NCBI GenBank assembly: GCA_903901225.1
Contig: CAIUQE010000039.1
Location: 1-50,848, forward strand
Origin: Candidatus Omnitrophota bacterium
GTDB taxonomy: Bacteria > Omnitrophota > Gorgyraeia > Zapsychrales > Fredricksoniimonadaceae
Direction of reading: 5' to 3'
DNA length: 50,848 bases
Part shown: positions 35,017-49,119 of the stretch, in pieces
Layout: the number at the start of each line of letters is the position of its first letter
Position numbering within the stretch: the first letter of the stretch is position 1
Program-made: the position numbers and the translations under genes
Notes under the pieces: generated by a model
Database searches by the model: none
Told to the model about the DNA's origin: nothing
Seen by the model: only the letters and a program-made list of their open reading frames with translations

Positions 35017-38000
35017 ATGTTCCAGAAACTGTTGCACTGGAGCTTGTTCAAAGCAATCGCGATAGCGGTTTTGATCGCTTTCGTGAGCCTGATCCCTGTT
35101 GAATCCGGTTATGCCCAGACCCTCCTGCCCAAGCCGGGCGCCATGGTTCCTCTCACCGGCGCTTTCACCCCGACTTTGATGCGCGGTTTGCGCGTCGACC
35201 TTAAAGACCCGTTCAACCTTTATTTCGTCATGAGCAACGGGGAAAAACCGTTCGCGCGGGGTGAGCAGAAGGAAGAATACAAGAAGCTCATCAAATATTT
35301 CATGGCGTCCTTGATCACCCCCAATCGTGACATGTGGGTGAACCTCTCTCCCAAAGAAGCGGACCGCATCATTCCCGATAATTTTTCATTGACCGAAATG
35401 GGCCGCGATCTGCTCGCCCAGGATTACCTGCTGAAACAATTCACCGCGTCATTGATATCGCCTGACACGCGGCTCGGGAAAGATTTCTGGGATCAGATCT
35501 ACCAGAAGGCCCGCGCGCTCTACGGCACCACGGACATTCCGGTCAACACGTTCAACAAGGTCTGGATCGTTGCCGACAAGGCGGATATTTACCAGAAGGA
35601 TGACACGGCCATTTTGGTGGGGAGCCATTTGAAGGTCATGCTTGAGCAGGATCTCATGGCCGCTGACGCGAACAAGGCGCGGTTCGCGGTTGCCGCTGAC
35701 GAGGAAAGCAAGGTTGCGCGGGAACTGGCCGCGGATATCGCGCGCAAGGTGATCGTCCCCGTGATCGAGAAGGAAGTGAACGAAGGCGCCAATTTTGCCG
35801 GGGTGCGCCAGGCCTACAATTCCATGATCCTGGCCACGTGGTTCAAAAAGACGCTCAAAGAGAGCCTCCTGGGACAGGTGTACGCGGACCAGGGCAAGGT
35901 CGCGGGGATCGCCATCAACGACCCCGGCGCGAAAGAGCGGATCTATCAGCAATACCTGCAGGCCTACAAGACCGGGGTGTTCAATTACATCAAGGAAGAA
36001 CTGGACCCGCTCACGCAGGAGCTGCTGCCCCGGAAGTATTTCTCGGGCGGGATGGCGCCGTTTGACGCGTCGATGATCAATATGGTCGCGTTCGATCAGG
36101 CGCGCAATGTTATCAACGGATTGAATGTCAATGTGACCGCGGTGACGCTGACAACGGCCGAGGGGAAACAATTCACCCTTAAAGCTCCGTCTCCTATCAA
36201 TGTAGTTGCGTCGGTTGCTAAATCATCCTGGGAAAAGAAATTGGCGCGTGTGGAGGTTGCGGAGGAAAATGCGCGTCAAGATTACGAGAAAGCGTTTGAG
36301 GATCAACAGGACCGTGCCCAGGGTACCGGCCGTCTCAAGCGGAGGATGAATATGTTGTTCCTCGCGCTCAGCCTGAATTCTTCGTTCATGTCGGCCATGC
36401 CCGCGTCCCTGCGCGCCGAGCCGGTCGCTAAGCCCGCGGTGACACAGACTACCCAGGTCCAGGCGCCCGTGGCGCCCGCGTTGAAGATTGTGGGGGACGA
36501 GACGGATCGTTTCAAGGGCACGACGGCACCGGCGGTGCTGAGCGCCGGTTTTGAGAAGGTCACGAAGGGGCATCGTCTCGAGGGGCATAGGATCAAGGTC
36601 GGGGATGGATTTATGACGATCGAGGTCGGCATGTGGGTGAAGATGGGCGATGTCGCGGATCTGAAAGATGGCGTGCCCCAGGGGGTTTATCCGACCAAAG
36701 AGGGCAAGGTCGTTGTGGCGATATTCAGCAATAACAAGGTGGTCCAGGCGGATGTCGGCGGTACGCAGGCCGTTGTGCCGCAGAAGAGTACGCCGTATCA
36801 ATTCGCCCTGCTGAAGGAGCTGCTGAAAAATAAAAAAATGATCGACAGCCTGGTCCAGGTTGGACGCGGGTTCAATGAAATGAAAGCGCGTGCGTATGCG
36901 GACAGCCTCAAGCAGCGGACCGCGCAGGACGCGGGTGTGGCGCTGGGCAAGAAAGTGTTCGATCCGAATTTTGGGGTCAAGGAGCGTGAGAAAACGATGA
37001 ATGCTACGACCCTTGAGGCCCAAAGCCCGGTCAATGTGATGGTCCAGTCCAACTACTATCAGCGCATGGGGACGTTCAACAGCACTTCGCTTGGCCGCGG
37101 GTGGAATGCGAACATCGGCCCCGTCATCCCATTCAGTCAGCAATTGGAGATGAAAGGGATCATTGCCGCCGGTAACCTGTCGGTCATGAGCATTCTTTAT
37201 ATCGGGGACAATGTTTTGCAGGAGATCAACCGGATGACGTTGCACCCGACGAACGAGCAGAGTTGGCTGATCCAGGGGCATAAGAGCTTTCTGGGAAAAA
37301 TGCTGGGAGCCTTGACCATTGACCGCCCGCTTGTCTACGGCGCGAACAATAAAGATTATGAACTTCAGGCGAACAGGATCACGCGGATCGGGTTACCCCG
37401 GACCATAGGGCAGTTTTTCGGCTTTGCGGCGTACCTGCCGGTTGTCGGGAAGATCTTTGGCCCGCAGGGGGAGCTGCTCTTGAGCGGGGGTTATCATTAC
37501 AAATACGGCGCGCGTGAGATCAGCTTCTACAAGAGCGCGTACCTGAACAATGATGAGAGCAAGATATTCATGGTCGTCGAACGCCAACTCCCGACGGATC
37601 GCGACGAGCTGATGAAGCTGGCGAACAACAAGACATTTAACATGTTCAATCCCGATGATGTTGACAGATACCTCAAGTTCGCGCAGGAAGGCGGCGGCTA
37701 CGCCCGGGGGCTTATCATTGACAAGGTTACCGGCGAGATCCAGTATTCCTTTATTTCTCCGCGCCATCCGAAGGGGTACACGCCCGACGGTGTTGTGCTT
37801 GTTTCTTCGAATGAGAAGTACAAGCAGATGATGGTCAAGGAGACGATGGTCCAGAATGGCGTGGATGAACAGGGGCGCAAGATCATCGCGTTTACCCGTA
37901 ATCGCTTGACCGGCGAGATCCGCAAGATGTATACCGCCGAGAATTTCCCCACACCCAATGAGGAGGAGAAGGAAGACCGCAATAAAGATGTCCTGGAATA

Positions 38001-41000
38001 CACCCGCTGGGCGGCTGAGGTGAATTATTGGCTTTATCATGAAAAGAACGGACCGGAGCCAGTCGAAGTGTCCTATACGGATGAAGATGGGCATACAAAG
38101 TCGGTCATGGTCACGCCGCCGCCGGACGATAAAATGCCGATCGGCATGATCCTTCACGGGCTGACAGGACGGATCTATTTTGCGGGGGAGGAGAATAATT
38201 TTCGGGCAGCCGCGGGTAAAGTCATGTCGCAAAGCGTGATATACGGGAAGAATTATACGGATCCGGTCAAAGAGGCGTTCGGTGCTCTGGTGAATAAAGA
38301 GGGTGAAGTGACGTTGGTCGATAAGATGCCGCTTCTGGTTGAAAAGACTATGCCGGCCATCTCAGGTGTTGGCGCTCCGGCCCCAAAAAAAGCTGTAGAA
38401 GAAAGTCAGCCGGATACGACCGTGGCGGATGTCCAGGTCCTTGATGAGACCGCCGAGGCGCCCGTGGATACGACCCTGGCGGCAGAGCCGGGGAAAGTCC
38501 CGCAGGACAGCCTGGGCACCGCGGTTCGATCCGCCATCAAGCCTTCTGCCGAGGTTCAAAAGAAAGAAAAGAAAGTTCGTCCTGACCAGCCCGAATTCGA
38601 GAACACGGCGAAAGGTCATATCGTCCTGATAAACCGTGCCGGGATAGAATTAAATAACAATGCGTACGGGCCTTTTATTGCAAGACTTAAGGATGAAGTG
38701 GATCAGAATCTGACCAATGTCAGGATCCTTCGTTCCAAGGTACCCAATTACATGGAAAAGGACGCTTACGCGAGAACGGATATCCGCAGCGTGCCTTCGT
38801 ATATTGGCTGGTTGATGCAGCATCTTGACCGGCATAAAGAGTTTGAGGGTATCAGCCTGGATGGGCAGCCCGCGTACAAGGCCTGGGTCACATCCGATGG
38901 CAAAAGGTTCATTCCGGGAAAGATCTTCAATGATACGGCGAATAAAGGCATGCAAAGCGTTGGTGTCATTTATTACATGGACGGGCGGATGCCGGCAGTG
39001 GCCACGAGCAGCAAGGATTTTGTGTCACTGGGCTGGGCGCTGAGGCTGGGGACCGCGAATAATATCCGTGCCGGCAATAAGAACATGGTGATCGTCTCCT
39101 TGCCGGATGGCGAGGTTGAAATGAGCCCGAAGGCCATGGTCAAGGTAGAGAAAGGCCGGGTGGTCGGGGTTTTTACGGCGGGGATCAAAACCCTTAAAGA
39201 GCGCAATGTGCAGTTGCGGACCTTGAGGCAGGGCGGCATTGAGGCCGAGAACCTGGCGACGGGCGAGTTTGTGATCTATGCCCGCAGTAATGTCCTCACC
39301 ACGGCACAGAAAGCGGTGGGCATCCTGCCGGAACGGGATTTCGTGGCGCTCTTGGCCGCGAACAAAGTTGACATGGTCCATGTTGACGGCGAGGCCAAGG
39401 GGGTTAACAGGTTCAGGATATTGAAACAGCCGCGGCCGCGGATGGTAAAAGGCATTGCGTCGGCGGAGAAAGCGCTGACGCTGCAGGAGTTTTACGCCAA
39501 AAATTTCCTTGTTGTCTGGAAAGGGCCCAAGGGCAGGGAGATGACGCAGTTCGTGCCCAGGTCGGCCCTGGAAAGGAACGCGGGCCTGTTGGCTACGGAG
39601 GCAAAGGATATTATCCAACTTGATATTGACGGTAATGAGGCCGCGCGCGCGTTGAGGACAAGGGCCGGCTATCAGGTCATTCCGATGCGTGAGATGCAGG
39701 CTTTTCTTGACAATAATTTTTTGGCGGTTGCCCCCGGGTATAAGACGGCCATGTTCGTGCCTTTTACGGCGATCATCCAGCCGGGCCCACGGGAGGAGAT
39801 CCGGCGTTCGTCGGTCGAGTTCCAGATGATCGATGTCAAGGGCAATAAGATCGCGAACATTTATCTTTCCAGGAATCCATTGGCATCCCGTCTTGAAAAG
39901 TTCGGCCCTAACGGGACAACTCTCATTTACGCCCTTTTCGATTATCACAAGATAAAAGAACCGGGGAAGGCGGATGACGGGATATACCAGTTGTCCCGCG
40001 ACAAGAAACCCATCGGGCAGACGGCGGTCCTCTCGAAAGAGGCCATCGCATTGCTTGACCCGGACGCGGTCAAGGGGCAAAAGGCGATCATCAAAAGTGA
40101 CTATCAGACGGGCGTTTCCACGATCGAAATATTTACCACGTTCAAGGACACCAGGCCGGCCCGCGTGATCGACCCTTTGTCCCAGAGCGTGACGTATAAC
40201 GACGGGAAAGGGCGCTCTGTTCACCGGACCCGCATGCAGCAGCATCATTGGGATGAGGTGCGGTCTTTTGTTGAGAAGTTCTCCAAGGGGAAGCCTTTTG
40301 CAAGCGCATACTCCGCGGCGATCGATCCTAAATACCGCGGCATCGACATCAGCCTCGGCGGGCGGCTGGTGAAGGATGTCTTGGTGTTCAACAAGATCAC
40401 GGAAGAGGACGGGAAAGTCGTGGTGGATTATATCGACGTGACGGGCCGGCGCCCCGGGGCATACGCCATGGCCGGGCGAATGATCTTTGACGCCGAAGGC
40501 AACAAACAGGTCCATTATACGGGCAATATCCTGTTGCCGCAGGAGATCAGCGACGGGAACGATCTGCTGGCGCAAGTGGACAAGGTCGTTTTCAGCAAAA
40601 AAGACGTTTATTACTACGAATCGGGCCCAGTGGGCGGGTTTGATCGCCGCGAGGTTTTTGAACGCCGGGACAATGATTGGATCCCGGTGAGGACCATCCA
40701 TCAGACGCGCGAGGCGGAAATAGCGAGGAATGGCATAGATTACGATCGTTTTATCGCCGAACCAGAGGTCAACAAGATCCTGCTGGCGGCAGGCATTGAT
40801 GGGAAGAGTGTTTTACGCTACACCTCCATTGTTACCAGTGAAGGGGTTGAGATCATTGATTACATCAAACAGTTCGATCCGTTGGAGAAGAAGGTCTTTA
40901 CTGTTTATAAATATAACGACAGGATCTTCAAGATCGTCGTGGCCACGGCGCATGATCCGTTGACGGGCGAGGTCGTGGGGTCGTTCACCCTTAACCATAA

Positions 41001-44000
41001 TTATGAGAGGAATGAGCGGCAGGAATACCTCGGCGACAGGGAGTTAAGCCGCCTCAAGATGAGCGGCCTGGCGAAGGATATTTTCAATCCGACGGTCAGC
41101 GCGTCTTATAAGGAAGTAACGGGTAAGGATCTGTGGCAGGGTTTGGAGCGTGAGGGGATCACGCGGGATACCAAACTCGTTGTGGTCCGCAGCCAGGACC
41201 GTTTGACGGCTTCCGATGGCAAGTTCAGCGACCAGTGGAGCCTGGCGGAATACAAGGTCATGCGCCTCAATGACAACACCGGCAGGGCCCTGGCCACGAT
41301 CAGCGGTAATGGCACGATCGCGATCACGCCCTGGTGGGACCATACCAGCCTGGAAACCCTGACGGCGCAACGGCCGTTCAAGGATTCTGTCATCCCTTCG
41401 CCGAATATTATCCCCGGTTCGGTGCGTATCCATTACACGGGAAAAATGCATGAATGGATCGTTTTTGACAAATTTGAGAACAAGGTTACTCCGGGAGCGC
41501 GTTACCAGGCCAAAGTGGCGGAGTTCCTGGATAATATTACTTATGATGTCCTGACCGGGCGCAAGGTGCGGGAGGAATTCAAGCAGGACCTTTCCCTTAT
41601 TGCCCAGTTGGTCAACAAGACCTCCCAGCGGATCTTTGGTCGGGAAGCCTTTCCCACCAGGAAGATATTGAATTATGATCTCAAGTCCAATTCCAATATA
41701 CCGGTCAATGCGGTTGATGCCAGGGGGCAAGAGGTGGCTCGTTGGAAAGCGGTCTCCTACGATAAGCTGGGGAACCAGACACAGATCATCAAGGAACAAC
41801 ATCCGCTGTTGAAATTCTGGTGGCCCACGATGGCCCGGCATTATGACGGTTACGGCGAGGGGTGGCAGTTCAACGCCAAAGTCACCCAGTTCAGGTCATT
41901 ATTGATGGCCATACTGGCGATCATTGCCGTCCCCGTCACGGTGGTCCTCAGGGCGTTCCAAAGTTCCGCCAAACGCAAGAAGGCGGCCGCGAAGGTCAGG
42001 GCTATGTCGACAGGGCAACTGTACGATGAGGATATTATGATCGCGGCCCAGCAGCGTTTTGCCGCGAAAGTAGTGCCATCCATCCAAGATGGCCCTGACG
42101 GGTACCGTTTCGCCATGACCGGCGATCCTGAATCCCTGTTCCTTTTTAATTTGAACGCTATTTACACCATGGGCATAAGCCGTTATATCAAAGCGCACGG
42201 GATCAAGCCGGAAGATTATAAAAGTGTTGTCGATACGGACGCGCTGGATGCCTGGGACGAGTATACGGCCAGCACCGGGAAATACCTGGCCCAGGAGCTT
42301 GCCCGCAGCGCCACCACGATCGTCTGGGACAAGGTTGTCCTCGATCTGATCGGCCCTGTCATGAACATCGCGATGGGATCAGCGAAAGAGGCCAAAGGAT
42401 CCGGTGGTGATGTGGATGCTCCGGGCAAACTGGAAGAAAAATTGACCGACGCGTTGAAAAACAACAATGATCTTAAGGGTAAGGATCTGGAAAAAATTCT
42501 CGCGAATGATGCTGTATTGAATATTGTCAAAGAAATGGCGGATGTGTTCCGTATCCATATCGAGAGGGAAAAAGAGGCTGTTAAGAAATATGATATTGCC
42601 GACACCCCCATCGACCGGGAGACGCATTTTGCCCTTAAGGAGATCCGGGCCAAATTCCTGCAAAAAAGGCTTGCGCCCTTAAAAAAGGCCCTGCAGGCGG
42701 AGATAGCGACGACCCTTGCGACAGCCGGGTGGGATGATGAAAAAATGGTGGGGTTACAAAAGCAGAACGGGTTGAAAGGCGCCGGTCCCTACGCTCAGAT
42801 CGGGAAGGCTGACCAGCAGATAGGGGACAAGCTGGAGGTGTATTTTGCCACATACCGTGATCTTTTGATAGAAGCATTGGACGCAGACCTGAAGGCCGGG
42901 AATACCGCCAACGGGGAGTTTGAAAAGGTCAGCGCGGAACTGGGGATCACAGTTCCAGGACACAGCGGGTTCGATTACGATCATTTTCAGGCATTTCTCA
43001 AGAAGACCAATTTCGAACCTGCGCCAAACAGGATCATCATTAATAACAAAGGCGAAAAAGTTTATGTCGCCGATGCGGGCGTATTGCTGGGAGAGCTCAA
43101 ACAAGGGAATCTGTCGCGCAAGGATATTGACGGGTATGTCAAGTCATTGAACAGATTGACCTTGAAGACATTCTTCGGTCTCGGCATTAAGGCGATCCAT
43201 CCGCTCCTTTTGGACGGGACGCTGATGCCGCGTTTTATTTTGGGTGGCATCGGCCTGAGCATGCTGACGATGGGGACCGTGTCACTGGGATCCTGGTTCG
43301 CGACGCCGATCATGGGCGTCGCGGCTGGAATTATCCTTGGTGGCATTGGCATTGTCCTGGGGGTGGGGGCTGTCGTTGACTATTTCAAGATATCTCACAG
43401 TGACCATATGCCGATGCCCCTACGTTTGGGCCTGGCCGTGGCAGCGCTGGCCGGCGCCGTAGTCGTTTTCTGGGGGTTGCCGACGGTCGGTGTCGGCCTC
43501 GGTCTTTTTCTCAAAGGCACCATGGGCGTCTCGTTGTTGACCGAAGCTTTTTCCCTTGCCGTATGGCAGCGGTCTGCTTTCGGGCTGAGCCTCAATTATC
43601 ATTATCGCGCGTCCAGTTCGCCGGGGCGCCTTAGGGCCAATATTTTAGTCTGGACGCAGTATTTTTCTTTCATGGCTATTTCTTTTCTGTTCGGCTGGGT
43701 CACGTATGGATTTTTCGCGTCACAAATACTGTTGGGCGCCTGGCCGGTATTGGTCGGGGCACTTGTCATGTTTTGCCTTACGGCGTACGGGACCAATCTT
43801 GCGCTGTGGTTCGGACCGGGATTCATTGCCTCAAGGTTCTTTCCCAAGGAAGGCGCGGATCAGCCCAGTGACATCGCGCGGGAGTGGGCCGGGTTGAAAA
43901 AAGACGAGCGCCTGCTGATCAATTACGTCGGGCCGGTGCTGGGGTCGATCGGCGTGATGAAAGAACATATCGACAAACCGGAGAAAATACCGGTAGCTGT

Positions 44001-46884
44001 TGAGAATGTCATCAAAGAATTGCAATGGCTTGTCGCGGATGATTCACCGGCGGCTTTGGGAACACTGGAAGGGATAAGAAAAACGCTCGGTGTGCCGGCG
44101 GACAGGCCCATGGCCCAGTTTGTCAACGTGGATGTGAGGAAGTGGCTAACGTTGCTGTATTCCAGGGAATCTGAGGCCCACGTTTCACTGATGACCGATG
44201 ATCAGTTATTGGCCAGAGGCGCGGCCCGCGCCGAGGGGGAGATCCCGCTTAATTTGAGCATTGTTTACGATACCCCCCAGGAACGGGAACAGTTGATCTT
44301 TGCCAAAGAGATCAATCAGCTGGTGAGTCTTTTTAATCCGATATCCGAAAAGGGAAGCTTGAACCCCTACGATGCCGGGGTAAGCCTGGTTGGATTGGCC
44401 TATATGTTGCGTGATACGCTGGATCCTGAAGGAGTTCCCCTGGGCAAGAAGACCATATTGGCGTTCACATACAATAATACGTCAGAGAAGAACCAGGATA
44501 CTATCGAGAATTTTCTCCGTCTTTTTGCTCATATTTCCGGCGCTGAAGTTTCCATGAACTTTGTGCCCACAGTGACTTTTTCAAAATCCGGCACCATGAA
44601 CGGTGATCGGAGTTTGTCGCGTGATTACGAGGCTGGCCGGGAGCGGGCCAAGAAGTTAAGCCAGGTCCGCCGGATCCTGATCCTGGACCGTAATTCGAAC
44701 GCGCTCGATCTGCGGCGGCATATCAATGACCTCGTGGCGAGCATGAATAATCCGGAACAGGTGATCATGGTCGCGCACCGGAATACGACCAATACCCGCC
44801 GTTATATAGGCGTGCAGAATTATCTCGTTGAATTCGGGCAGGGCAATGCCATGTTGGGGATGCTGGAGAAGATCGCCACCGGTTGGGAGAACAATATGGG
44901 TGTTTATGGTTGGGATGCCCTTAAGAAAATGAGCAATCCTGACTTTCCCCGGAAGGGTTTTACGCCCGAGACGCGCAAAGCGAACAGGGCCAGGGCCAAG
45001 GCGGCTGGCCTGGGGAGCGAGTATCCTGATCAGTTCGGGATGATCGGGTTTGCCATGAATTCGATGGGGATCAGCGAAGATTACGAGGCCGTCCTTCAGG
45101 AAGCCCATATGCTGGTGGCCCTGGGTTATGATCCATCGTACGCCCTTTCGAAAGCGATCCATCACAAGCGTCGCGAGTCATTTTCCAATTTTGAGCTGGG
45201 CAGCGCGGTGCCGCGTTGGGCCGGCGGGCGCAATCAGGTGATCAGCCGATTTCTGATGCAGACGATTAATGACATTGGCCCTGAGGCGTATGTTGAACGA
45301 GAGGCGAACCGCAATGTGGGGCGCCATTACGTCGGAATGCCCTGGGGGTTCCTCAACCTTATAATGTTACCGGTATCGGTTGTTTTTGGCTTTAATCCAT
45401 TCCAGGGCTTGTGGCTTACGCTGGCCACGGTGGGGACATTGTTCAATCAGATATTGCGCCTCCATGGCTGGGGGGCGATGATCGACGATTCCGGATTTTT
45501 ATTCGGGACAGCGAGGTTCTTGTTCTACCAGTGCCGTGACGCGCCTGTCTTCGCGGTCCGCGTCACACTGGAAATGCTGTCTTTGATCAACAGTTACGGT
45601 GGGCTGACATTTGTTTTTAATGTGTCCGGCGGGGGCGGGATCGCGCACGATACGAACGCCTGGGCGCAGTTAAAAGCCAATCCATTAAGTTTTGTGTCGT
45701 TCAAAAGTGTTGTGGGCCTCGGAGCTTTGACGACCGGATTGATGCTGGTGTCGACCATTTGCGGCTTGACCATGGCACATGTGTCTATGATGTTTTTAGC
45801 CATGTTCTGGGGGGTCAATATGCTGATCGGCCTGTTCGTCAGCGAGAACCAGCCCGGGGTGAAGGTCTGGAATGGTAAAGGCGATAATATAGCGGCCTCT
45901 CTGGGAGGCCTGTCCGCGGTGGCTTTTTCCGCGGCGATCTATTTGCACCTGACACCTTTTATTATCCTGGGATTGCTGGGTATCGCCGGCATGGTTATCC
46001 TCAACAAGTTGGTGACCGGAAATCCCCAGATGAAACGTCTGGTCTCACAATTTAACCGGTATTTTGTCAGGACCTCGGCCGCGACATTATTGTTCGCGCT
46101 GGTTCCGGCAGGTCTTTTCGTGAAGTTCAATATTTGGCCCAATGTAACAGCGATCTTTACGATAAAGGAATTTTTTGTGGGAGTAACGAGTGTGCTGGGC
46201 GGTATATTGGGATTTATAGCGGTTGGATACGGGATCGGTGATCGTGCGGGACGCCGCGTCAAGAAAGAGTACGAGGCCACGGTCGCGAGGTTCTGGGAAA
46301 AACGGGATTCCCTGAAGGATTCGAAACGTATCATCGTCGGGCAAAGGATCCATCAGGTGGATATTTACAGGGATCAAATGGCCTATAAAAGAGCCGCTGG
46401 GGCATTGAAAGAGATCAATGACGAGCTGGATGGCAATATTTCCGTTCCCGTGGTGCTGTTAATGGGCAGCGGGCCGTCGGCCGTTAGGAAACCGGAAGTT
46501 TCCGTTGAGAATAAGGTCGCGGCTGACGCGGTCCTGGCGGTTGAAAAAGAACGGGTTGGTTGGCTGCGACGGAAGTGGGAGGCTCTTAAGATATTGGAAA
46601 AGCATTTGAAGGGCAAGGTGACAGCGGCGGCAATGAAAAACAATGTTTCTTCGTCGGGACAAAACAACGCTGATAAAAGCCAGGTCCCTGACAAAGTCGG
46701 CGGCATCAGCCTCAACGACGAGCATTTGACCATCACCATCAAGGTCGACGGTGCGGGCATGCCACTGCCGGTGCAGTTCCAGGACCCGGACATGGTCAAC
46801 ATCCAGGGGTTGTCACCTGTCATCCGCGAGATATCGCCGGTGACGGCTACTAATATGCCCGTGTTGGCTGAATTGATGAAATAA
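35017..46884 (+). CDS. giant secreted/membrane protein, 3,955 residues
   Basis: Residues 1-33 are a signal peptide (SGYAQ). Residues 34-350 are a module repeated in the next gene product (GTTDIPVNTFNKVWI, LLAQDYLLKQFTASLI, RKYFSGG). A second signal-like segment follows an internal ribosome site at about residue 446. Residues 490-2290 are long and beta-rich, with an acidic Pro/Thr linker near 1115-1190 and scattered YD/RHS-like strands (YDKLGNQTQIIKE). A transmembrane helix lies at about 2295-2317, a charged helical stretch at 2320-2710, a multi-helix block at 2715-2945, a soluble segment at 3080-3430 with E3354-D3355 and R3400-W3401 spaced as in processive GT2 glycosyltransferases, more helices to about 3745, and a C-terminal module (GGISLNDEHLTITIK). 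I recognise no named family for the whole; such giants are reported in Omnitrophota. Confidence 0.85.
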   Translation: MFQKLLHWSLFKAIAIAVLIAFVSLIPVESGYAQTLLPKPGAMVPLTGAFTPTLMRGLRVDLKDPFNLYFVMSNGEKPFARGEQKEEYKKLIKYFMASLITPNRDMWVNLSPKEADRIIPDNFSLTEMGRDLLAQDYLLKQFTASLISPDTRLGKDFWDQIYQKARALYGTTDIPVNTFNKVWIVADKADIYQKDDTAILVGSHLKVMLEQDLMAADANKARFAVAADEESKVARELAADIARKVIVPVIEKEVNEGANFAGVRQAYNSMILATWFKKTLKESLLGQVYADQGKVAGIAINDPGAKERIYQQYLQAYKTGVFNYIKEELDPLTQELLPRKYFSGGMAPFDASMINMVAFDQARNVINGLNVNVTAVTLTTAEGKQFTLKAPSPINVVASVAKSSWEKKLARVEVAEENARQDYEKAFEDQQDRAQGTGRLKRRMNMLFLALSLNSSFMSAMPASLRAEPVAKPAVTQTTQVQAPVAPALKIVGDETDRFKGTTAPAVLSAGFEKVTKGHRLEGHRIKVGDGFMTIEVGMWVKMGDVADLKDGVPQGVYPTKEGKVVVAIFSNNKVVQADVGGTQAVVPQKSTPYQFALLKELLKNKKMIDSLVQVGRGFNEMKARAYADSLKQRTAQDAGVALGKKVFDPNFGVKEREKTMNATTLEAQSPVNVMVQSNYYQRMGTFNSTSLGRGWNANIGPVIPFSQQLEMKGIIAAGNLSVMSILYIGDNVLQEINRMTLHPTNEQSWLIQGHKSFLGKMLGALTIDRPLVYGANNKDYELQANRITRIGLPRTIGQFFGFAAYLPVVGKIFGPQGELLLSGGYHYKYGAREISFYKSAYLNNDESKIFMVVERQLPTDRDELMKLANNKTFNMFNPDDVDRYLKFAQEGGGYARGLIIDKVTGEIQYSFISPRHPKGYTPDGVVLVSSNEKYKQMMVKETMVQNGVDEQGRKIIAFTRNRLTGEIRKMYTAENFPTPNEEEKEDRNKDVLEYTRWAAEVNYWLYHEKNGPEPVEVSYTDEDGHTKSVMVTPPPDDKMPIGMILHGLTGRIYFAGEENNFRAAAGKVMSQSVIYGKNYTDPVKEAFGALVNKEGEVTLVDKMPLLVEKTMPAISGVGAPAPKKAVEESQPDTTVADVQVLDETAEAPVDTTLAAEPGKVPQDSLGTAVRSAIKPSAEVQKKEKKVRPDQPEFENTAKGHIVLINRAGIELNNNAYGPFIARLKDEVDQNLTNVRILRSKVPNYMEKDAYARTDIRSVPSYIGWLMQHLDRHKEFEGISLDGQPAYKAWVTSDGKRFIPGKIFNDTANKGMQSVGVIYYMDGRMPAVATSSKDFVSLGWALRLGTANNIRAGNKNMVIVSLPDGEVEMSPKAMVKVEKGRVVGVFTAGIKTLKERNVQLRTLRQGGIEAENLATGEFVIYARSNVLTTAQKAVGILPERDFVALLAANKVDMVHVDGEAKGVNRFRILKQPRPRMVKGIASAEKALTLQEFYAKNFLVVWKGPKGREMTQFVPRSALERNAGLLATEAKDIIQLDIDGNEAARALRTRAGYQVIPMREMQAFLDNNFLAVAPGYKTAMFVPFTAIIQPGPREEIRRSSVEFQMIDVKGNKIANIYLSRNPLASRLEKFGPNGTTLIYALFDYHKIKEPGKADDGIYQLSRDKKPIGQTAVLSKEAIALLDPDAVKGQKAIIKSDYQTGVSTIEIFTTFKDTRPARVIDPLSQSVTYNDGKGRSVHRTRMQQHHWDEVRSFVEKFSKGKPFASAYSAAIDPKYRGIDISLGGRLVKDVLVFNKITEEDGKVVVDYIDVTGRRPGAYAMAGRMIFDAEGNKQVHYTGNILLPQEISDGNDLLAQVDKVVFSKKDVYYYESGPVGGFDRREVFERRDNDWIPVRTIHQTREAEIARNGIDYDRFIAEPEVNKILLAAGIDGKSVLRYTSIVTSEGVEIIDYIKQFDPLEKKVFTVYKYNDRIFKIVVATAHDPLTGEVVGSFTLNHNYERNERQEYLGDRELSRLKMSGLAKDIFNPTVSASYKEVTGKDLWQGLEREGITRDTKLVVVRSQDRLTASDGKFSDQWSLAEYKVMRLNDNTGRALATISGNGTIAITPWWDHTSLETLTAQRPFKDSVIPSPNIIPGSVRIHYTGKMHEWIVFDKFENKVTPGARYQAKVAEFLDNITYDVLTGRKVREEFKQDLSLIAQLVNKTSQRIFGREAFPTRKILNYDLKSNSNIPVNAVDARGQEVARWKAVSYDKLGNQTQIIKEQHPLLKFWWPTMARHYDGYGEGWQFNAKVTQFRSLLMAILAIIAVPVTVVLRAFQSSAKRKKAAAKVRAMSTGQLYDEDIMIAAQQRFAAKVVPSIQDGPDGYRFAMTGDPESLFLFNLNAIYTMGISRYIKAHGIKPEDYKSVVDTDALDAWDEYTASTGKYLAQELARSATTIVWDKVVLDLIGPVMNIAMGSAKEAKGSGGDVDAPGKLEEKLTDALKNNNDLKGKDLEKILANDAVLNIVKEMADVFRIHIEREKEAVKKYDIADTPIDRETHFALKEIRAKFLQKRLAPLKKALQAEIATTLATAGWDDEKMVGLQKQNGLKGAGPYAQIGKADQQIGDKLEVYFATYRDLLIEALDADLKAGNTANGEFEKVSAELGITVPGHSGFDYDHFQAFLKKTNFEPAPNRIIINNKGEKVYVADAGVLLGELKQGNLSRKDIDGYVKSLNRLTLKTFFGLGIKAIHPLLLDGTLMPRFILGGIGLSMLTMGTVSLGSWFATPIMGVAAGIILGGIGIVLGVGAVVDYFKISHSDHMPMPLRLGLAVAALAGAVVVFWGLPTVGVGLGLFLKGTMGVSLLTEAFSLAVWQRSAFGLSLNYHYRASSSPGRLRANILVWTQYFSFMAISFLFGWVTYGFFASQILLGAWPVLVGALVMFCLTAYGTNLALWFGPGFIASRFFPKEGADQPSDIAREWAGLKKDERLLINYVGPVLGSIGVMKEHIDKPEKIPVAVENVIKELQWLVADDSPAALGTLEGIRKTLGVPADRPMAQFVNVDVRKWLTLLYSRESEAHVSLMTDDQLLARGAARAEGEIPLNLSIVYDTPQEREQLIFAKEINQLVSLFNPISEKGSLNPYDAGVSLVGLAYMLRDTLDPEGVPLGKKTILAFTYNNTSEKNQDTIENFLRLFAHISGAEVSMNFVPTVTFSKSGTMNGDRSLSRDYEAGRERAKKLSQVRRILILDRNSNALDLRRHINDLVASMNNPEQVIMVAHRNTTNTRRYIGVQNYLVEFGQGNAMLGMLEKIATGWENNMGVYGWDALKKMSNPDFPRKGFTPETRKANRARAKAAGLGSEYPDQFGMIGFAMNSMGISEDYEAVLQEAHMLVALGYDPSYALSKAIHHKRRESFSNFELGSAVPRWAGGRNQVISRFLMQTINDIGPEAYVEREANRNVGRHYVGMPWGFLNLIMLPVSVVFGFNPFQGLWLTLATVGTLFNQILRLHGWGAMIDDSGFLFGTARFLFYQCRDAPVFAVRVTLEMLSLINSYGGLTFVFNVSGGGGIAHDTNAWAQLKANPLSFVSFKSVVGLGALTTGLMLVSTICGLTMAHVSMMFLAMFWGVNMLIGLFVSENQPGVKVWNGKGDNIAASLGGLSAVAFSAAIYLHLTPFIILGLLGIAGMVILNKLVTGNPQMKRLVSQFNRYFVRTSAATLLFALVPAGLFVKFNIWPNVTAIFTIKEFFVGVTSVLGGILGFIAVGYGIGDRAGRRVKKEYEATVARFWEKRDSLKDSKRIIVGQRIHQVDIYRDQMAYKRAAGALKEINDELDGNISVPVVLLMGSGPSAVRKPEVSVENKVAADAVLAVEKERVGWLRRKWEALKILEKHLKGKVTAAAMKNNVSSSGQNNADKSQVPDKVGGISLNDEHLTITIKVDGAGMPLPVQFQDPDMVNIQGLSPVIREISPVTATNMPVLAELMK
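36341..36354 (+). promoter_or_regulatory. internal ribosome site and ATG inside the giant gene
   Basis: GGAGG at 36341-36345 lies 6 bases before the in-frame ATG 36352. The codons that follow give MLFLALSLNSSFMSAMPASL, a signal-peptide-like segment after KRR. Translation from here would make a secreted protein of about 3,510 residues without the N-terminal module. Alternatively it is the relic of a fusion between two genes. Confidence 0.45.
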
Positions 46885-46926
46885 ATTTCAAATTTCAGAT
46901 AGGATAAATGCAAGAGTGAGGAGGCC

Positions 46927-49119
46927 GTGTTGTTCAATAACTCCGAGTTTATTATTATACGAAGAATGATCGCCGTGATTCTGATCGTAACGTTGGCCTT
47001 GGGCCCCCAATTCAGTTATGCCCAGAGTGCGTTTGTTGCAACGCTCCCTGAACCGGGGCAGATGGTGGGACGGTCCCCGGCGTTTGTCCCGGTCCTTGTT
47101 AAAGGCCTTGTCATCCATCCCGACAAGCCTCTCAATTTTGATTTCATTGTGGATTCCGGAAATGACTCTGCAGGACAAGTCGCTGTCAAAGAGCAGAGCG
47201 AAAAGATCGTTAAATATTTCCTCGCCGCGTTAACGGTCCCTGAAAAATCCTTGTGGGTGAACCTTTCGCCCTATGAAAAAGACCGCATGATCGACGAAAG
47301 TTTGGGCCAGACGGTGCTTGGCCGTGACATGCTGGCGCAGGATTATGTTCTCAAGCAGGTGACGGCGTCGTTGATCTATCCGGAAGACAATCTGGGTAAA
47401 GAGTTCTGGAACCGTATTTACAAAGAAGCGCAGGAGAAGTTCGGCACGACCGATATCCCGGTCGATACGTTCAATAAAGTCTGGATCACGCCGGAAAAAG
47501 CAGAGGTATTTGAAAAAGACAATGCCGTCTATGTGACACAAGCAAAGCTCAAGGTGATGCTCGATTCCGATTACCTCGCCGCACAAGGATCAGGGAACGG
47601 AGAATTAGCCGTTTCCCTCCCCGCGGTGGGGAGGGATCAAGGGAGGGGGGATTCAAAAGCAGAGTTTACGAAGAACATTATCCGTCAAGTCGTCCTCCCG
47701 GCTATTGAGGAAGAAGTCAATCAGGGCAAGAACTTTGCCGCACTGCGGCAGGTCTACTGCGCCGCCATTCTCGCCAAGTGGTATCGCGAACTGGTTCAGG
47801 ACACGCTGATGTCACAAGGGTATGTTGGAAAAAACAAGATCTCCGGCGTCAGCAGTGACGACAAGACACTTAAGGAACAGATCTACCAGCGGTATATCGC
47901 GGCGTACAAGCAGGGCGTGTTCAATTACATTAAAGAAGAGGCGAATGCACTGACGGGTGAAACCACGCCGAGGAAGTATTTTTCAGGCGGGTTGTACAAG
48001 TTTGGGGATATCAAGTTAGACAAGGCCCAAGGCCCCGAGGCGGTTGTCAAAGTGGGGAAGGTTTTTGAGGTGGATTTTGCGATGGATGGGGCGAAAGATG
48101 CGTCGATGGTCAATGTTACTCCCGCTGAGGCGTTGGCCTACCAGGAGGAAATGCGTCGTAATTTTGTTGAGCTTGATAAGAAGGCGGCGCTTCAATTTGG
48201 CGATACAACATCTTCCCAGGCTGTAGTTGATGCCATTAGCCACAATAATGGCAATAGGGAAAGCATGTTCCACCATATTCTTGTGGCAGGCAATCAGGAT
48301 GTAAGGCGTATTTACAAGGCCGTGCAGGATCTTGTTAAAGAAAATGTCGGAAAAGACACACCCGTGATTAACATGTCTTTGGATGAACTTCATGTGACCA
48401 TTTCCAACGATGAGATCGCTCCCATGGGGGCGTTGACATTATCTTTGCAGGAATTGACCGATGCGCTGCGTCAAGATAATGGTGATCTCAGGCCTTTTGA
48501 TATCGCGCTGGTAGGGCCCCATTTAATGCCCAATGGGGTTGTGGTCATGGAATATACGACATCAGCACCGGCATTCCTTCAATTGCGCAAGGCCGCGCTG
48601 GCACGGTATAAGGCTCACCCGTTGTCGGAAGATAACAGGGATTTTGTTCCGAATATCATGCACAGTACGGTCGCTGTTATAAGAGATCCGCAGATACCGC
48701 GGCAGGCTCTGCAGGCACTGAAGGTAAAGTTGGATGATTACCGGTCAAAGCTTCAGCCGGTTCATATCACGGTCAACACGATCACGGCGACGCATTTTCT
48801 TGAGGAATCCCGTCGTTTCGTCGCGTCGCTGGATATGGGTCTTTCTGTTGTCGACGCGTCAAGGGATGATCTTCAGCAAATATCTTCTGCGTTGTCGGAG
48901 CAGGCCGACCCGGCCATGAACGGCGGTATCGATATCAAGAACATCGACGTCAACAAGACCGGCCATGGCCGAATTAAATTTAACGATGCCACCCTGCAAC
49001 AGATCTTCAACGGCGGATTTGACGGCTTCACGCCCGTCTTCATCAAAATGATGCCGGTAAATGATCCGTTGATGCTCCTGGGTGTTGCCCCTGCGGCACC
49101 AAAAGAAGTAAAAGTTTGA
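46927..49119 (+). CDS. secreted protein sharing the giant protein's end modules, with a 2H-phosphoesterase-like domain
   Basis: 730 residues if started at GTG 46927; TTG 46930 fits the GAGGAGG upstream better. Residues 14-33 are a signal peptide ending SYAQ. Residues 38-358 align with the giant protein's N-terminal module almost throughout (WVNLSPYEKDRMI; MLAQDYVLKQVTASLIYPE; GTTDIPVDTFNKVWI; RKYFSGG). Residues 445-620 carry two HxT motifs, H489-V-T491 and H579-S-T581, 90 residues apart, as in 2H phosphoesterases of the LigT/CPDase superfamily. The end (GGIDIKNIDVNKTGHGRI) resembles the giant protein's end. It follows the giant gene by 42 bases and is likely co-transcribed. An RNA- or cyclic-nucleotide-type substrate is speculative for a secreted protein. 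Confidence 0.85.
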   Translation: MLFNNSEFIIIRRMIAVILIVTLALGPQFSYAQSAFVATLPEPGQMVGRSPAFVPVLVKGLVIHPDKPLNFDFIVDSGNDSAGQVAVKEQSEKIVKYFLAALTVPEKSLWVNLSPYEKDRMIDESLGQTVLGRDMLAQDYVLKQVTASLIYPEDNLGKEFWNRIYKEAQEKFGTTDIPVDTFNKVWITPEKAEVFEKDNAVYVTQAKLKVMLDSDYLAAQGSGNGELAVSLPAVGRDQGRGDSKAEFTKNIIRQVVLPAIEEEVNQGKNFAALRQVYCAAILAKWYRELVQDTLMSQGYVGKNKISGVSSDDKTLKEQIYQRYIAAYKQGVFNYIKEEANALTGETTPRKYFSGGLYKFGDIKLDKAQGPEAVVKVGKVFEVDFAMDGAKDASMVNVTPAEALAYQEEMRRNFVELDKKAALQFGDTTSSQAVVDAISHNNGNRESMFHHILVAGNQDVRRIYKAVQDLVKENVGKDTPVINMSLDELHVTISNDEIAPMGALTLSLQELTDALRQDNGDLRPFDIALVGPHLMPNGVVVMEYTTSAPAFLQLRKAALARYKAHPLSEDNRDFVPNIMHSTVAVIRDPQIPRQALQALKVKLDDYRSKLQPVHITVNTITATHFLEESRRFVASLDMGLSVVDASRDDLQQISSALSEQADPAMNGGIDIKNIDVNKTGHGRIKFNDATLQQIFNGGFDGFTPVFIKMMPVNDPLMLLGVAPAAPKEVKV
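47614..47636 (+). repeat. palindromic insert inside coding sequence
   Basis: CCCTCCCC (47615-47622) pairs with GGGGAGGG (47628-47635), extended by T/A, followed by AAGGGAGGGGGG. It encodes SLPAVGRDQGRGD within a linker of the 730-residue protein, a stretch with no counterpart in the giant protein's module. It looks like a mobile palindromic element inserted in frame, comparable in kind to Rickettsia RPE elements. Confidence 0.55.

Follow-up and report, generated by a model that had tools for sequence, protein, structure and literature searches.

Shared end modules around interchangeable cargos in an Omnitrophota class: candidate pieces of one exported holder domain

Why should a giant protein of 3,955 residues and its small neighbor be built around the same two ends while their middles are unrelated? 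The Omnitrophota have not yet been isolated, and their giant unannotated proteins are a known puzzle. The question was raised by a 50,848-nucleotide stretch of contig CAIUQE010000039.1 (assembly GCA_903901225.1, Candidatus Omnitrophota bacterium), hereafter the window, in which two plus-strand open reading frames (ORFs), P0001 (35017..46884) and P0002 (46927..49119, 730 residues), lie 42 bases apart as described in an initial annotation. Both match the profiles of an N-terminal module (N-module) and of a short C-terminal tail (C-tail) that enclose a central cargo, an arrangement we term a carrier. The annotation had proposed fixed ends around variable centers as a modular export system; this is strongly supported by our analysis, which moreover revealed the pair to be only 2 of about 40 carriers in this genome. 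On balance, we lean toward the reading that a single exported holder domain, composed of N-module and C-tail, brackets an interchangeable cargo.

The mature N-modules of P0001 (35116..36051) and P0002 (47023..47991) both end in RKYFSGG and follow signal peptides predicted from sequence to be cleaved between GYA and Q (35017..35115) and between SYA and Q (46927..47022), respectively. As annotated, the N-terminal parts of the two proteins align strongly, with 44% identity over 356 residues (E 1e-94), and the family alignment holds 39 invariant columns. The C-tails, starting with GGISLN in P0001 (46699..46881) and with GGIDIK in P0002 (48922..49116), show a weak pairwise likeness, and the claimed resemblance persists in the family profile (E 1e-18 and 4e-17, respectively), which was built from 35 sequences of the same genome including these two tails. 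A search of this genome (2.38 Mb, 49 contigs) with the P0001 N-module retrieved approximately 40 loci, nearly all with a tail of the type GGID[L/F]N...G(f/v)xPVIxxIxP...LG. Both ends are present in 36 ORFs, carriers account for 6.2% of the genome, and the one-ended ORFs are mostly contig-edge cuts, frameshifts, or remnants. On contig C49 (G000:C49:17825-35148; L047, L048), five same-strand carriers with unrelated cargos form a tandem run. A lone 71-residue remnant of a carrier C-terminal end on contig C34 (L218:1614-1826, minus strand) suggests that carriers also decay.

Comparison of paralogues showed that the cargo is replaced at two Gly-Gly edges while the ends stay. The approximately 37 middles of the genome have no mutual BLASTP similarity at 1e-3. 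In the pair L041/L039, one of several such pairs, the N-modules are 93% and the C-tails 80% identical around unrelated middles. On the DNA level, with the caveat that the pairs are not independent, the N-side similarity of paralogues breaks off no more than 4 nucleotides from the final FSGG base in 68 of 85 cases, and on the C-side it returns no more than 3 nucleotides from the initial GGID base in 29 of 45. Since the junction codons differ synonymously, there is no sign of a fixed recombination site. Fast divergence instead of a swap was rejected, as orthologous carriers of a congener keep cargo and ends equally similar. Capture of cargos from neighboring genes was likewise discarded, being seen in distant cases only; an example is L033:1545-2930, where a pyridoxal phosphate (PLP)-dependent Cys/Met-metabolism gene directly precedes a carrier with a distantly related cargo of the same family (29%).

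The two ends are coupled well beyond this genome. In other genomes, 66 complete N-module ORFs were compared; the C-tail is present in 61 of them, nearly always at most 15 residues from the end, and of the five tail-less ones two or more look frameshifted or broken. All 16 divergent class members with a readable end carry (G/A)G[I/V]D[L/F/M] 12-133 residues before the C-terminus, with either a lineage-specific extension or nothing behind it; the shortest ends, GGIDLRNMRINLR and AGIDLRRMEIKAK, are located at the very C-terminus. Since it was found at every readable divergent end, we consider the GGID-type motif as the core of the C-tail. Within the genome, N-module and C-tail identities co-vary (Mantel r 0.65 vs 0.33, top of 999 permutations). 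Structure prediction with AlphaFold2 returned a confident alpha/beta model for the N-module (predicted local distance difference test 84, predicted template modeling score [pTM] 0.81); for the isolated C-tail, pTM was 0.27 with almost no secondary structure besides the last helix. Neither sequence nor fold of the N-module matched Pfam, the PDB (profile and Foldseek searches), or the viral structures of BFVD, and a known-family identity was rejected on the two Foldseek searches together with the Pfam and PDB profile searches.

Extension of the search toward related genomes detected the N-module in 34 of 37 genomes (the own genome and 36 relatives), several having at least 57 copies. In a phylum sample, 89 of 285 genomes were positive, every one belonging to the class of the window, and divergent families of this class often have just one N-module copy, on proteins from 1,100 to 4,900 residues long. 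In a scan covering 84,980 species, nearly all of the 79 best loci were labeled Omnitrophota, the other labels being Elusimicrobia (1), Elulimicrobium (1), and "bacterium" only (2). Three IMG/VR contigs filed as viral (L304, L305, L306) have the N-module and may represent host flank; regarding a phage origin, no phage records with the module were found. A literature search, covering mostly work outside subscription journals and preprints, found the end modules nowhere described, and the export-and-holding unit appears to be previously undescribed.

The only N-module relatives found outside the Omnitrophota are encoded on six Streptomyces megaplasmid records (L307-L312; including WP_121549542.1, WP_331747086.1, WP_251091514.1, and WP_266737726.1; hmmsearch E 1e-28 to 3e-47). 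These secreted proteins of ~760-830 residues keep WVNLxP, GRxLLxxDxxLK, and WI(V/E)P and share the signal peptide and a variable enzyme-like region. They differ in that the cargo precedes the domain instead of lying between domain and tail, in a terminal hydrophobic segment with arginines (in some with an LAxTG-like wall anchor), and in number, with six plasmid records compared with tens of carriers per Omnitrophota genome. The Streptomyces domain is flanked on both sides by GG[I/V]D[F/L], and GGVD[L/F] directly follows it at the position where Omnitrophota proteins have FSGG and then the cargo. In the simplest reading we infer, N-module and GGID strand would belong to one domain, with the cargo placed at the Gly-Gly junction; alternatively, the same unit could have been reached by circular permutation from the order seen in Streptomyces.

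Several features of the carriers point to export. A signal peptide with an AxA-type site was recognized in 36 of 37 N-modules, and in 27 of 36 carriers no further hydrophobic segment follows the N-module. The median cysteine content was 0.20% in 31 cargos of the genome compared with 1.06% in 77 neighboring genes (P 3e-10), a large effect although a few antisense ORFs are among the control genes. Because the cargos are nearly free of cysteine and stand behind cleavable signal peptides, export is likely. With respect to the initial proposal that the ends address the cargo to the envelope, these findings point toward exit from the cytoplasm, whereas a particular address, the envelope included, is not indicated.

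The cargos are mostly enzymes of the cytosolic type, with intact catalytic signatures in those checked. In the own genome, the cargos comprise a PLP-dependent enzyme, GT2, UDPGP, HATPase_c, TPR, methyltransferases, radical SAM, PGM/PMM, and 2H, as well as a methyltransferase combined with HD and cytidine deaminase and a weak RelA/SpoT match. Cargos elsewhere include glutamate and alanine dehydrogenases, starch synthase, PRTase, GH116, M48 with ABC1 kinase, and a metallophosphatase with FHA. A further cargo, with PPDK_N and GWD1_pHisD (L172:9003-13817, plus strand; the L240 protein), is glucan water dikinase-like, a kind of enzyme best known in the context of starch. A complete glucose-6-phosphate isomerase (E 4e-199) fused to phosphoglucomutase (L142:4189-9186, plus strand) has both signatures intact and no cysteine in 1,666 residues, compared with 10 and 4 in the free-standing Omnitrophota isomerase and mutase, respectively. 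Judged from such sequences, the cargo enzymes likely act outside the cytoplasm. A bolder and speculative proposal, to which we give limited credence, is that the whole class delivers enzymes of central metabolism in intact form to other cells, where they would serve as metabolic effectors; these would include glucose phosphate isomerase, phosphoglucomutase, dehydrogenases, and enzymes for UDP-sugars and starch, all looped individually in an interchangeable split-domain bracket.

Taken together, a mechanism can be outlined in which a Sec signal peptide would carry the chain out of the cytoplasm, the 310-residue N-module would fold, and the short tail at the other end, with its GGID[L/F] strand, would pair with it, keeping everything between FSGG and GGID as a loop. 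With this holder, the class would have exported dozens of enzymes low in cysteine as well as some very large proteins. This exported set probably acts beyond the own cytoplasm, either at the surface or within another cell, during the predatory or parasitic lifestyle that is predicted. The one-domain reading would account for the sharp cargo edges, for the obligate pairing and common history of the ends, and for the failure of the tail to fold alone. Several observations weigh against it. A contact between N-module and C-tail is neither seen nor directly predicted. The C-tail profile gives no significant match to the Streptomyces GGVD strand, so that this link consists of a five-residue motif and its position, and the motif also precedes the Streptomyces domain. 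Low cysteine content is compatible with any extracytoplasmic location, no recurrent dedicated machinery was found among the genes beside carriers, and for cargos that depend on ATP, UTP, or NAD it is not obvious what the substrate would be other than in a cytoplasm.

Possible, if short of probable, is a polymorphic effector system for conflict, in which a fixed delivery module brings variable toxic or host-manipulating domains into prey or competitors. Polymorphic toxin systems (PMC3482391) similarly combine a fixed trafficking part with a swapped enzymatic part, and cargo turnover within the genus is rapid. A predatory or parasitic life has been proposed for the Omnitrophota, which encode giant ORFs (Seymour et al. 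2023, PMC10066038). By eye, deaminase-like (HSE...SERxFCxRC) and PD-(D/E)xK-like regions were noticed upstream of the Streptomyces module, and would fit such a system, but a Pfam search left these regions unrecognized. Moreover, most recognizable Omnitrophota cargos are metabolic enzymes instead of toxins, and the cargo is held centrally between fixed ends, not terminally. No recurrent small partner of the immunity type was found among the neighbors of carriers; the gene after P0002 is reductase-like and also present at a congener site without P0002.

A second alternative keeps the ends apart, as two independent sorting labels: the N-module would act in the periplasm, as chaperone or adaptor, whereas the C-tail would be a secretion signal recognized by an outer-membrane translocon, with no contact needed. 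The C-terminal position, the conserved short core, and the disordered prediction suit a linear signal, and low cysteine suits the passage of unfolded chains. Type IX secretion offers a precedent with its Sec signal peptide and conserved C-terminal domain (CTD) on varied cargos; however, carriers have an obligatory 310-residue N-module and a tail without a predicted fold of its own. By hmmscan, no known CTD family of Pfam or NCBIfam was found at the C-terminus of either window protein. A search of the genome for SprA gave no match, the control genomes being likewise silent. The PEP-CTERM/exosortase system also uses a short C-terminal motif, and the genome encodes an exosortase (PF09721, E 1e-56; G000:C31:76879-77649), but the carrier motif is not followed by a transmembrane segment and basic cluster: C-tail alignments and hydrophobicity revealed no PEP motif, transmembrane helix, or basic cluster at carrier C-termini. 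Independent labels do not require the obligate pairing with the N-module and the correlated divergence, and lineage-specific additions behind GGID would be unusual for a read-out signal. We thus consider this explanation unlikely; the shared ends noted initially are real, but they look more like pieces of one domain than separate labels.

The giant ORFs of the phylum bear on a third alternative. A 16,827-residue ORF of the own genome (G000:C11:44397-94877, minus strand; L211-L215; 0.22% cysteine) contains segments homologous to the P0001 cargo (25% over 752 residues) and, after it as in the window, to the P0002 cargo (29% over 201 residues), an order also found in an end-open ORF of 4,072 residues in G011. 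The window pair can thus be seen as carrying, in two separate holders, material that one giant chain combines. A segment of the P0001 cargo (43570..46416) is common to this ORF, to a 17,399-residue ORF (G003:C26, L230), and to a 37,904-residue ORF (G013:C42, L233). In PMC12419801, Omnitrophota proteins of gigantic size are noted to include polysaccharide enzymes, kinases, peptidases, and methylases. Published giant ORFs resemble the carriers in phylum, cargo segments, and low cysteine, and the end modules are mentioned in the searched text of neither paper (PMC10066038, PMC12419801). The shared order and the tandem carriers on C49 would fit a surface multi-enzyme coat, with N-modules and C-tails of different molecules docking head to tail, cellulosome-like, around giants. 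We regard this as quite improbable, as the 16,827-residue ORF lacks either end module and N-module and C-tail divergence is correlated within each protein, which favors intramolecular pairing. Membrane sensors with the N-module outside and a cytoplasmic cargo in receptor-kinase manner, suggested by signaling domains among the cargos (HATPase_c, FHA, HD, RelA/SpoT-like), are very improbable and were already disfavored by the cleavable-looking signal peptides, the cysteine-poor cargos, and the lack of later hydrophobic segments in most carriers.

Returning to the window pair, the cargo of P0001 (36052..46698) is novel: hmmscan of P0001 gave no Pfam domain, and its cysteine content is 0.08%. Behind the N-module, seven hydrophobic segments are predicted in the giant. 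Residues 2852-3800 (profile A5) gave no PDB or Pfam matches; a glycosyltransferase-like look (DRN, SED, PRWAGG) was noted by eye only. In P0002, the annotated 2H-phosphoesterase-like domain (48379..48783) was confirmed by PF13563 (E 1.6e-7, exceeding the curated cut-off in hmmscan) and two H-x-[T/S]-x motifs (HVTI and HSTV), both being features of the 2H phosphoesterase superfamily. The P0001 orthologue in a congener (4,344 residues) shows 60-81% identity by segment, and in congener G003 it is directly followed by the reductase-like gene that adjoins P0002 downstream in the window. As this syntenic site (L229) is devoid of P0002, the latter represents a gained or lost unit. Tandem duplication as its origin was rejected, the P0002 N-module being 58% identical to carriers elsewhere compared with 44% to P0001. 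A 4,966-residue carrier of congener G004 resembles the P0001 cargo in the first 1,200 cargo residues only.

Cysteine-free textbook cytosolic enzymes working outside the cytoplasm would be surprising to most biochemists, and a natural bracket accommodating cargos from about 200 to 4,500 residues may be of interest for protein engineers. For the biology of the class, a simple sequence rule (signal peptide, N-module to FSGG, cargo, GGID tail) lists dozens of putatively exported proteins per genome and predicts the start and end of each cargo; thereby, what the Omnitrophota send out becomes testable.
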